A DNA stretch of 64,000 bases from contig JAGOQB010000004.1 in NCBI GenBank assembly GCA_017991675.1, positions 186,001 to 250,000 of the forward strand, in the 5' to 3' direction. How positions within the stretch are numbered: the stretch's first letter is position 1; each line of letters begins with the position of its first letter. The notes below the pieces were generated by a model. That model saw only the letters and a program-made list of their open reading frames with translations. It had not been told where the DNA came from and did no database searches. The stretch is from Phenylobacterium sp. Lineage in GTDB: Bacteria; Pseudomonadota; Alphaproteobacteria; Caulobacterales; Caulobacteraceae. Made by a program: the position numbers and the translations under genes. Shown here one piece after another: positions 5,948-46,582 of this stretch.

Positions 5948-6080
5948 TGTCATCCCGGAAAGCGCAAAGCGCTTGTCCGGGATCCATTCGCGCCGCGACA
6001 GCAGGACCGGGCGCAGCCGATCCGCTCGGCCAACTTGAGTGTTCATGGATCCCGGTCTTGCTTCGCAAACCGGGATGACA
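5948..6080. repeat. REPIN-like element (family A, copy 1)
   Basis: Bounded by TGTCATCCCGG (5948-5958) and its inverse CCGGGATGACA ending at 6080. The left half is a hairpin around AAGCGCAAAGCGCTT, the right half a hairpin around TCTTGCTTCGCAAA. The same bounded, two-hairpin architecture occurs at 16520, 43039 and 46443. Confidence 0.85.
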
Positions 6081-16519: not shown

Positions 16520-16636
16520 TGTCATCCCGGTTTGCGAAGCAAGACCGGGACCCATTCGCGCCAAGTCAGCAGAATGATCACCAACATCAGGTGTTCATGG
16601 GTCCCGGTCTTCGGCTGCGCCGAAACCGGGATGACA
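16520..16636. repeat. REPIN-like element (family A, copy 2)
   Basis: TGTCATCCCGG at 16520-16530 and CCGGGATGACA ending 16636. The left hairpin loop is TTTGCGAAGCAAGA, the right one TCTTCGGCTGCGCCGAAA, so both hairpin types of the family are present. The centre contains CAGGTGTTCATGGGTCCC. It fills the gap between the convergent fadL-like and M20 genes. Confidence 0.85.
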
Positions 16637-19532: not shown

Positions 19533-19605
19533 CCGCTCATCCCCGCGCAGGCGGGGATCCAAGCTGATGCTCAGCTTAGGCTCCCGCTTTCGCGGGAGTG
19601 AGCGG
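19533..19605. repeat. Multi-hairpin intergenic repeat (family B, copy 2)
   Basis: Outer stem CCGCTCA (19533-19539) with TGAGCGG (19599-19605). Inside are three hairpins: ATCCCCGC-GCAG-GCGGGGAT, AAGCTGATGCTCAGCTT, and CTCCCGC-TTTC-GCGGGAG. The cloverleaf layout and the CTCATCC...CCAAGCTGA order match the element in front of the GIY-YIG gene at 33376. It lies between grxC and the nitrilase gene. Confidence 0.8.
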
Positions 19606-32160: not shown

Positions 32161-33333
32161 ATGACGCGTGAAGCCGTAATCGTCTCCTACGCTCGGACCG
32201 GGATGGCCAAGTCCCAACGCGGCGGGTTCAACATGACCCCGACCGTCACCATGGCCGCCCACGCGATCAAGCATGCGGTCGAGCGCTCGGGCGTCGACAA
32301 GGCCGCCGTCGAAGACGTGATCCTCGGCAACGTGGCGCACGGCGCCGGTAACCTGGGCCGCCAGGCCTCGCTGCTGGCCGGCCTGCCGATCACCACCTCG
32401 GGCGTGACCGTCAACCGCTTCTGCTCGTCGGGCCTGCAGACCATCGCCACCGCGGCCAACTACATCCGCAACGACGGCGCTGAAGTCGCCATCGGCGCGG
32501 GCGTCGAATCGCTGTCCTTCCCGGGCGGCGGCGGCGGCGGCGACAACTTCGACAAGAACCTGGTCGCCCAGTATCCGGCCATCTTCATGCCGATGATCGA
32601 CACCGCCGACATCGTCGCCGAGCGCTACAATGTCAGCCGCGAAGTCCAGGACGAGTACAGCCTGGAATCCCAGCGCCGCATGGCCGCCGCCCAACAGGCC
32701 GGCAAGTTCAAGGACGAGATCGTCCCGCTCGCGACCAAGATGAAGGTCGTGAACAAGGAAACCAAGGAAGAGAGCATCGTCGACTACGTGGTCGACCGCG
32801 ACGAGTGCAACCGTCCGGACACCACCATCGAAGGCCTGCGCAAGCTGCAGCCGGTCCGCGGCGAAGGCAAGTTCATCACCGCCGGCAACGCTTCGCAGCT
32901 GTCGGACGGCGCCGCCGCCGTGGTGCTGATGGAAGCCAAGGCCGCCTCCAAGGCCGGCCTGACGCCGCTCGGCGCCTTCCGCGGCTGGGCCGTCGCCGGC
33001 TGCGCGCCTGACGAAATGGGCATCGGTCCGGTGTTCGCCGTTCCGCGTCTGCTCGAACGTCACGGCCTGAAGGTCGACGACATCGACATCTGGGAACTGA
33101 ACGAAGCCTTCGCCTCGCAGTGCGTCTATTCGCGCGACAAGCTCGGCATCGACCCGGAAAAGTACAACGTCAACGGCGGCTCGATCGCCATCGGCCACCC
33201 CTACGGCATGACCGGCGCCCGCCTGACCGGCCACATCCTGCAGGAAGGCAAGCGCCGCGGCGCCAAGTGGGGCGTCGTCACCATGTGCATCGGCGGCGGC
33301 ATGGGCGCGGCGGGTCTCATCGAGATCTACTAA
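32161..33333 (+). CDS. Thiolase (acetyl-CoA C-acyltransferase)
   Basis: 390 residues, a complete thiolase. Catalytic Cys88 in [11 protein letters not shown], the NEAFA motif, His346 in [16 protein letters not shown], and Cys376 in [11 protein letters not shown]. It is closer to FadA-type 3-ketoacyl-CoA thiolases (RFCSSGLQT) than to PhaA acetoacetyl synthases. It cuts 3-ketoacyl-CoA to acetyl-CoA in beta-oxidation. No fadB partner is adjacent. A strong Shine-Dalgarno (GGAGGA, 8-9 bases before ATG) and codon use rich in C-ending codons suggest high expression. It sits between the parvulin gene and secA. Confidence 0.93.
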
Positions 33334-33375
33334 GTCTGGCCCAATAAGCCTGAACTGACTTGAGAACTGCCCCCT

Positions 33376-33431
33376 CCCCCGCTCATCCCGGCGAAAGCCG
33401 GGACCCAAGCTGAGTTTCAGCCGAGCGGGGG
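33376..33431. repeat. Multi-hairpin repeat abutting the GIY-YIG start codon (family B, left arm)
   Basis: Outer stem CCCCCGCTC (33376-33384) with GAGCGGGGG (33423-33431), 9 perfect pairs. Inside: hairpin TCCCGGC-GAAA-GCCGGGA (33386-33403) with a GNRA loop, and hairpin GCTGA-GTT-TCAGC (33409-33421). The last paired base is immediately before the ATG at 33432. Bases 33381-33410 recur exactly, inverted, at 33741-33770. Confidence 0.92.
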
Positions 33432-33734
33432 ATGGGTTTCTACACCTACATCCTGGCGAGCGGCCCGCGCGGCACGCTCTACACCGGAAGCACCGACGAC
33501 CTTCCGAAGCGGATCTTCGAACACAAGGAGAAGGTCCGGCGCGGTTTCACCGCCAAATATGATGTCACTCAACTCGTCTGGTTCGAGGCCCTCGAAGGTC
33601 GCGAAGCCGCCTTTCGGCGCGAACGCCAGATCAAGGAGTGGAAGCGGCGCTGGAAGATCGAGCTGATCGAGGCGGCCAATCCGACCTGGCGCGATCTCTA
33701 TCCCGAGCTAAATCGCCTTATCTCATTTGATTGA
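33432..33734 (+). CDS. Small GIY-YIG nuclease-domain protein framed by inverted repeats
   Basis: 100 residues, a single GIY-YIG domain. The first half-motif is YTYIL (4-8), the second LYTGS (16-20), with Arg27 and His31 in PKRIFEHKEK and a conserved acidic/Arg helix (EALEGREAAFRRERQIKEWKR). This matches the UPF0213/YhbQ-like group, single-domain nucleases without a DNA-binding module. The ATG has no normally spaced Shine-Dalgarno; the G-run before it is inside the repeat's outer stem, so initiation may be blocked when the stem forms. A perfect 30-bp inverted repeat flanks the gene (33381-33410 and 33741-33770), which suggests the gene and its flanks are one unit. Confidence 0.88.
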   Translation: MGFYTYILASGPRGTLYTGSTDDLPKRIFEHKEKVRRGFTAKYDVTQLVWFEALEGREAAFRRERQIKEWKRRWKIELIEAANPTWRDLYPELNRLISFD

Positions 33735-33740
33735 AAGCCC

Positions 33741-33770
33741 GCTTGGGTCCCGGCTTTCGCCGGGATGAGC
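33741..33770. repeat. Inverted copy of the GIY-YIG upstream repeat (right arm)
   Basis: Exact reverse complement, over all 30 bases, of 33381-33410, starting 6 bases after the TGA of the GIY-YIG gene. Only the hairpin with its flank is copied, not the outer stem. Confidence 0.95.
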
Positions 33771-33818
33771 GAAGGGTTGGCGCCCGGCTCACCATTTTGT
33801 TGAGTCTCCACCCTCGCG

Positions 33819-33940: not shown

Positions 33941-36703
<2,763 letters not shown>

Positions 36704-42927: not shown

Positions 42928-43023
42928 CGCTCCTCCCGGCGAAGGCCGAGGCCCACGACCGCGCTTGGAGTCGGTCACCTGTTCGGTCGACGCGCTGGAC
43001 CCCGGCCTTCACCCGGACGAGCG
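42928..43023. repeat. Degenerate multi-hairpin repeat (family B, copy 3)
   Basis: Begins ACGCTCCTCCCGGCGAAGGCC and ends GGCCTTCACCCGGACGAGCG, so the ends pair over about 20 positions with several mismatches. The centre holds GGTCACCTGTTCGGTCGAC. It seems to be a worn copy. It follows tonB directly and may end its transcript. Confidence 0.6.
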
Positions 43024-43038
43024 GTAAACAGCCAAGGC

Positions 43039-43176
43039 TGTCATCCCGGTTTCGGCGCAGCCGAAGACCGGGCCCCATGAACACCAGATCTCTCAAGCAA
43101 GCGGCGGCCGCCCCGCCACTCCCTCCCGGCCACGGCGTCAATGGGTCCCGGTCTTGCTTCGCAAACCGGGATGACA
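43039..43176. repeat. REPIN-like element (family A, copy 3)
   Basis: TGTCATCCCGG at 43039 and CCGGGATGACA ending 43176. The left hairpin has the TTTCGGCGCAGCCGAAGA loop, the right one TCTTGCTTCGCAAA. The centre shares CCATGAACACCAGAT with the copy at 46443. It ends 8 bases before the leuA stop and may serve as its 3' boundary. Confidence 0.88.
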
Positions 43177-46442: not shown

Positions 46443-46582
46443 TGTCATCCCGGTTTCGGCGCAGCCGAAGACCGGGACCCATGAACACCAGATGGCGCAG
46501 GAACCGGCTCAGTCAGCGCCAAGCGCTCCACGCATTGCGCGAATGGGTCCCGGACAAGCGCTTCGCGCTTTCCGGGATGACA
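46443..46582. repeat. REPIN-like element (family A, copy 4)
   Basis: TGTCATCCCGG at 46443 and CCGGGATGACA ending 46582. The left hairpin is nearly identical to copy 3; the right hairpin (ACAAGCGCTTCGCGCTTT) matches the left hairpin of copy 1 inverted. It lies between the MDR gene start and the carotenoid-oxygenase stop. Confidence 0.88.

Follow-up and report, generated by a model that had tools for sequence, protein, structure and literature searches.

A GIY-YIG nuclease gene between inverted REP hairpins as a candidate autonomous element of the CGTC class

A gene for a single-domain GIY-YIG nuclease lies between two exactly inverted REP hairpins in a 64-kb stretch of Phenylobacterium DNA (here called the window, meaning the whole stretch that was analysed). 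This arrangement of REP, GIY-YIG gene, and inverted REP quite probably constitutes an autonomous element of the CGTC class of REPs, whose nuclease would act on its own folded ends and disperse gene-less REP dimers. An element of this kind had been proposed in the initial annotation, and it is supported by the flanks of homologous genes, by the number of REPs per genome, and by the presence or absence of units and dimers at given sites, with its transposition and a nuclease acting on the hairpins as postulated parts. The case rests on results for the family as a whole. Judged from sequence comparison, the nuclease is probably the enzyme, missing until now, by which a large bacterial repeat family is spread.

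According to the accessible part of Di Nocera et al. 2013 (PMC3733652), the CGTC REPs form a super-family with an unpaired CGTC, TGTC, or CCTC tag, a stem of 8–9 bp, a loop of 4–5 nt, and a CCA-like tail. They occur mostly as dimers with the tags outside, show an alphaproteobacterial bias, and include dRS3 from Neisseria and RPE-4 and RPE-6 from Rickettsia; S. meliloti, A. lipoferum, Neisseria, and N. aromaticivorans are among the carriers listed (PMC3733652). In the same accessible part, a dedicated transposase is described as apparently absent, the mover is left open, and GIY is nowhere mentioned (PMC3733652). Among the top-ranked open-access papers searched, none links GIY-YIG proteins to REPs, and one that does may exist elsewhere, also as a preprint.

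The unit in the window and its nuclease

The unit and its surroundings comprise the following features:

33380..33410, + strand: left REP hairpin of the CGTC class, with a GCTC tag on the outside, a 7-bp stem, a 4-nt loop, and the tail CCCAAGC
33432..33734, + strand: GIY-YIG nuclease gene, 100 aa, single domain
33741..33771, − strand: right REP hairpin, an exact inverted copy of the left hairpin
33371..33436, + strand: extended fold, formed by the left REP and, around it, an outer stem that base-pairs with the gene start
32161..33333, + strand: left neighbour gene, presumably for an acetyl-CoA acetyltransferase (thiolase); in relatives, a terminator-like hairpin lies 3' of this gene, where the element now sits
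33941..36703, + strand: right neighbour gene, which we take to be secA; the gene order is kept in relatives without the insert

The exact 30-bp inverted copies reported initially (33381-33410 and 33741-33770) are confirmed and reach one base further outward, giving 31 bp, and the 40-nt arms of the unit are 93% complementary. A 24-nt core with at most three mismatches occurs only in the two arms of the unit within the 64-kb window and was never obtained in 100 shuffles, while a looser hairpin pattern gave seven matches in the window, both arms included, and none in shuffled sequence.

The product of the ORF at 33432-33734 holds one Pfam match, to the GIY-YIG domain (residues 3-76, E 5e-14), in which Y6, Y17, R27, and E64 are invariant among 41 aligned sequences. 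Its predicted structure (pLDDT 92.9) finds 1zg2 as the best Foldseek match (E 2.4e-4), followed by Slx1 (E 0.01), and both the active-site residues and the modelled fold are those of the GIY-YIG nuclease superfamily. With its single Pfam match, the 100-aa protein has no extra DNA-binding domain of the NUMOD type. A PHROGs search returned no match for it, the single NCBIfam match, to a group I intron endonuclease, stays below the cut-off, and only 1 of 50,697 phage records matches. The gene is patchily distributed among 385 Alphaproteobacteria, with up to 10 matches per genome, and is under purifying selection, with dN/dS values of 0.04-0.29 in all 15 pairs tested.

REPs beside homologous nucleases

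Inverted hairpins, noted at first beside a single gene, recur beside homologues in many phyla, far above control. Genome contigs were scanned for relatives of the protein, with repeats as no selection criterion, and 205 were found; among the best 80 of these 205, an inverted repeat with a score of at least 18 between flanks of ~300 bp was present at 45 loci, whereas, with up to 40 random positions drawn in each locus, the highest score was at least 14 in 11 of the 80 loci and 18 in 2 of them. A larger set of 184 loci, selected rather than random, comprised these best 80 relatives, 3 loci of the window genome, 29 of the family, 60 regions, most of them in family genomes with several copies, and 12 of 35 plasmid records, and left 174 distinct elements after duplicate removal. 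By a rule-based hairpin finder, a few of whose matches are spurious, REPs with outward tags flank 65 of the 174 elements on both sides, 31 upstream only, and 25 downstream only, with none in 53; at 1141 random positions in the same loci, the respective numbers were 3 on both sides, 23 upstream only, and 40 downstream only. The nearest hairpin had the opposite orientation upstream in 38 of 106 cases and downstream in 32 of 99, A. lipoferum being one such case. Compared with long ORFs of the same loci, 0 of 163 of which had REPs on both sides (15 had them on one side), nuclease genes are flanked on both sides in 36 of 88 cases (p 1e-19).

The two arms of a unit also resemble each other closely. 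In the 65 units with both arms, some of which are mutually orthologous, the mean edit distance between the arms of one unit is 3.1, as opposed to 10.7 when arms are permuted (0 of 5000 permutations as low), and the first eight stem letters are identical in 47, compared with 5.0 expected. The REP stem exhibits compensatory variation, with covariation over 38 diverse members. The tags in homologous units are GCTC, CGTC, or TGTC, and many units carry the published tag of the CGTC class. Units with REPs on both sides are also found in bins labelled Chloroflexota, Elusimicrobia, and Patescibacteria.

The carriers of CGTC REPs listed above have the gene beside CGTC-like hairpins, Neisseria being represented by N. 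gonorrhoeae. CGTC REPs flank the gene on both sides in records of S. meliloti and A. lipoferum, the gene of the latter lying between two whole dimers, and 50 kb of S. meliloti 1021 pSymB yielded no REP. Copies like dRS3 lie on both sides of the gene in N. gonorrhoeae, with outward orientation on one side, and a matched pair of GTCG-tagged hairpins, missed by the finder, was recognised by eye in N. aromaticivorans. The neighbour genes vary among the named, annotated loci. In Rhizobium CIAT894 (L200 2452-3387), the unit is followed by two more gene-less REP dimers in tandem.

The kind of REP follows the kind of nuclease. When the tag class (GCTC or GTC) of 58 Caulobacteraceae elements that have a REP is mapped onto the nuclease tree, it switches a single time, compared with a mean of ~19 changes under shuffling; this result followed the manual correction of the label of L126, where the finder had taken a spurious hairpin upstream, and there were two changes before. 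The single change has a support of 99/94 and is recovered in all of 200 bootstrap trees; the tree is built from few columns, and many of its forks are weak. Both kinds of nuclease, each by its own kind of REP, are encoded in seven genomes (G000, which is the window genome, G027, G061, G093, G097, G116, and G117), and therefore the REP tracks the enzyme and not the host. In the window genome, the window gene and a 67% paralogue have GCTC-type REPs, and a 47% paralogue has a TGTC-type REP. Distances between proteins and between REPs are correlated as well (Mantel r 0.41 overall and 0.46 within the family, with permutation maxima of 0.16 and 0.21).

The proposed tie between hairpins and nuclease extends to REP number, which is associated with the gene in both sets of genomes surveyed. 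In 149 Caulobacteraceae genomes, counted with a pattern for exact GCTC-type hairpins only, at least three such REPs were found in 48 of 85 genomes with the gene and in 8 of 64 without it, a value that was reached in 3 of 2000 trials when gene presence was shuffled within genera. In 385 Alphaproteobacteria, where a covariance model scored ~18 hairpins per genome and thereby caps the REP counts, at least 10 REPs were present in 93 of 125 genomes with the gene and in 34 of 260 without it (OR 19), and 10 of the 125 had no REPs by this model. In the 34 REP-rich genomes without the gene, it may have been lost or be present in a diverged form, or the genomes may be incomplete.

Gene-less dimers and comparison of sites

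The window genome (3.03 Mb, and 71% complete, which makes absences weak) has 29 related hairpins by one pattern and none by the same pattern reversed, together with three GIY-YIG homologues, the window gene included. Many of the hairpins are paired as dimers in opposite orientation, the REPs of the gene-less dimers lying 12-63 nt apart, and such dimers outnumber the units. The tail CCCAA is common to the window unit and five of the six GCTC-type gene-less dimers. Five dimers in the window were delimited, for none of which a strand is assigned:

19536..19602: gene-less dimer of the window unit's subtype, with its two hairpins oppositely oriented; shared with G098 and G159, absent from G123, G156, and G157
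5949..6079: gene-less dimer of a second subtype (TGTC tag); absent from all five relatives compared
16521..16635: gene-less dimer of the second subtype; a dimer in G098 too, one collapsed symmetric hairpin in G159
43040..43175: gene-less dimer of the second subtype
46444..46581: gene-less dimer of the second subtype

Six hairpins elsewhere in the window had been related to those of the unit. This holds for the one at 19533, which is of the unit's own subtype, and that at 42928 appears to be a degenerate copy of it, but the hairpins at 5948, 16520, 43039, and 46443 belong to the second subtype, which is characterised by its TGTC tag and long loop. A REP of this TGTC subtype adjoins another GIY-YIG paralogue of the window genome (C12, L032). 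At some of the sites 16521-16635, 43040-43175, and 46444-46581, the relatives G123, G156, G157, and G159 carry an unrelated repeat, CTCCCCC...GGGGGAG with an inner GTCAGC hairpin, as if such gaps were landing places common to several repeat families.

Presence and absence of units or dimers at the same site were seen between species. A comparison of six window sites in five relatives, with one flank pair lacking, found dimers in some and not in others. The thiolase site was compared in 30 loci (the window and 29 relatives) with a reach of ~1.5 kb, and a nucleotide match to the nuclease gene, which may miss a diverged gene, was found at the window locus only. The gap between thiolase gene and secA measures 204-344 bp in 19 of 21 relatives with both neighbours in reach, compared with 607 bp in the window, and the relatives' gaps that were displayed hold a terminator-like hairpin. 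Outside those 30 loci, G093 has a shortened and, by eye, apparently frameshifted copy of the unit between thiolase gene and secA, so that the history of the window site is not one simple recent jump; it may involve an old insertion lost elsewhere, an exchange, or a repeated hit. In A. lipoferum (L194 2380-2886), the unit and REP dimers separate sufB from sufC, and three relatives are without all of it.

At the gene site of Sphingobium, two strains have a single hairpin that resembles the joined outer halves of both REPs (one of them imperfect), and two others have none. Such a collapsed, double-tagged hairpin is possibly the footprint of a deletion or excision. As a regular intermediate, the symmetric collapsed hairpin was rejected, with two found in 1.67 Mb of fetched DNA (L207 2564-2592 and L186 11542-11577), a count outside which the imperfect form of TomTYG74 stands. 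No target-site duplication was obvious by eye beside the dimers of the window genome, and none was found in the window relatives, Sphingobium, or Azospirillum, where the empty sites are too distant to settle the point. Three collinear Sphingobium stretches of 50 kb showed no polymorphic dimer.

Related copies with unlike flanks are also found within one genome (84% in G071, roughly from REP to REP; 91% in G050, ending at the REPs; 85% in G063; and 97% in G012, one of these at a contig end). L250 and L251 are copies at unrelated sites of one genome, with homology from about REP to REP. Three of the four within-genome pairs displayed are old (dS 0.40-0.60). An element that is 82% similar over 377 bp is present in a Bradyrhizobium bin and a Chromatiales bin (L083 and L088) between unrelated flanks, which suggests a transfer between classes if the binning is right.

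Proposed mechanism, alternatives, and relation to known systems

In the mechanism proposed here, the nuclease would recognise the unpaired tag and the stem of its own folded REP, as a single strand or a cruciform, as RAYT/TnpA-REP enzymes do with GTAG REPs, and would nick it. The cutting would lead to the copying of the unit and of gene-less inverted REP dimers to new intergenic sites, aided by host replication and repair. GIY-YIG enzymes hydrolyse DNA and form no covalent link between protein and DNA, and for this reason the rejoining is expected to be a step of the host. To our knowledge, such mobility chemistry is not known for transposons.

Several of these observations could also be accounted for by a homing passenger, i.e., a GIY-YIG gene that inserts itself into REP dimers whose formation and movement have another cause, with the REPs as its target and not its own ends. 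GIY-YIG is a classic homing-nuclease domain, gene-less dimers are more numerous than units in the window genome, a nuclease with REPs as its target would equally show specificity for the REP tag, and 34 of the 260 genomes without a detected gene are rich in REPs. However, at the window and A. lipoferum sites, alleles without the gene are without the REPs too, the REP number is tied to the gene even without Y1_Tnp, and the unit shares its CCCAA tail with most of the GCTC-type dimers; this explanation is considered unlikely. Rather less probable still is a housekeeping function, in which the nuclease trims or resolves REP cruciforms for the host and is kept beside REPs that spread otherwise. The patchy presence of the gene with up to 10 matches per genome, the polymorphism of its sites, and the similar elements of L083 and L088 all speak against such a function, which would suit the purifying selection on the protein and a predicted fold nearest to UPF0213 and the branched-DNA nuclease Slx1.

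Movement of the CGTC REPs in trans by a RAYT or another transposase, to which the GIY-YIG gene would be linked indirectly, is left open in the accessible text of Di Nocera et al. (PMC3733652), and Y1_Tnp (RAYT and IS200 type) is present in 69 of the 385 alphaproteobacterial genomes. This domain, the sole transposase family tested, is related to the presence of at least 10 REPs by an OR of 1.6 overall (p 0.09) and of 0.97 in genomes without the GIY-YIG gene. In genomes without Y1_Tnp, the effect of the GIY-YIG gene remains (69 of 95 genomes with the gene and 29 of 221 without it), and the window genome, which is 71% complete, has no Y1_Tnp match. With the OR of 0.97 and no match in the window genome, Y1_Tnp acting in trans is disfavoured, and an indirect link of this sort seems very improbable. 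Plain terminators, finally, were rejected as an explanation of the hairpins, as they would leave both the link with the nuclease and the matching of the tags unexplained.

The autonomous element preferred here resembles the published CGTC REPs in its unpaired outer tag, short-loop stem-loop, CCA-like tail, and predominance of tag-outside dimers, which are found both in the window genome and as dimer-like pairs among the family places listed. It differs from their description in the accessible part of the source in the nuclease gene inside the pair, the 7-bp stem, and the GCTC tag, which is missing from the published tag list, while the loop of the window unit has 4 nt and its tail reads CCCAAG; the TGTC of the window's second subtype is on that list, but its loops are long (PMC3733652). 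With the RAYT/TnpA-REP systems (REPtrons and REPINs), it has in common an enzyme gene flanked by the hairpins it presumably disperses, inverted dimers, a cognate pairing of enzyme and repeat, and a REP number tied to the enzyme. Those enzymes are of the HUH Y1 type and their REPs bear a GTAG tag, whereas here a GIY-YIG enzyme is paired with CGTC, GCTC, or TGTC. TnpA-REP enzymes use both the GTAG motif and the palindrome, as stated in the accessible part of PMC8266576. Because enzyme and tag differ, the window unit works like RAYT/REP without being a member of it, and by this analogy it would be a second system of REP dispersal, enzymatically unrelated to RAYT.

GIY-YIG homing endonucleases of the I-TevI type exhibit the same catalytic domain and selfish-gene behaviour, but here a single domain of 100 aa is combined with terminal inverted hairpins of its own and varied neighbourhoods. 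Small GIY-YIG proteins of UPF0213 (1zg2, 1ywl) are alike in size, fold, and sequence, and their entry titles give no mobile context. Like the MITEs of insertion sequences, the gene-less copies have the ends of a gene-bearing unit, although here the unit contains no known transposase and no target duplication was seen.

It is somewhat favoured that these units represent a new class of transposable element, in which a single-domain GIY-YIG nuclease would cut its own tag-and-hairpin ends and disperse itself and CGTC-class REP dimers through Alphaproteobacteria and far beyond. If true, the orphan CGTC super-family, including dRS3, would be explained, REP dispersal would have found an independent second solution beside RAYT, and a hydrolytic nuclease would be added to the enzymes that drive mobile DNA. 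The original definition of the widespread CGTC REPs did not settle how they spread, a question that a dedicated, clade-matched nuclease makes directly testable.

A cloverleaf-like fold reaching to the ATG had been described initially as part of the element. At the window unit it is real, the DNA fold up to the ATG having −27.1 kcal/mol and a z of −6.1, but as a general feature of the family it was rejected, its outer stem being recognised by eye in two of 56 elements folded, the window unit and L213. An outer stem on the start region of the gene could possibly lower translation of the nuclease. In L213, the outer stem holds compensatory changes relative to the start-region pairing of the window.
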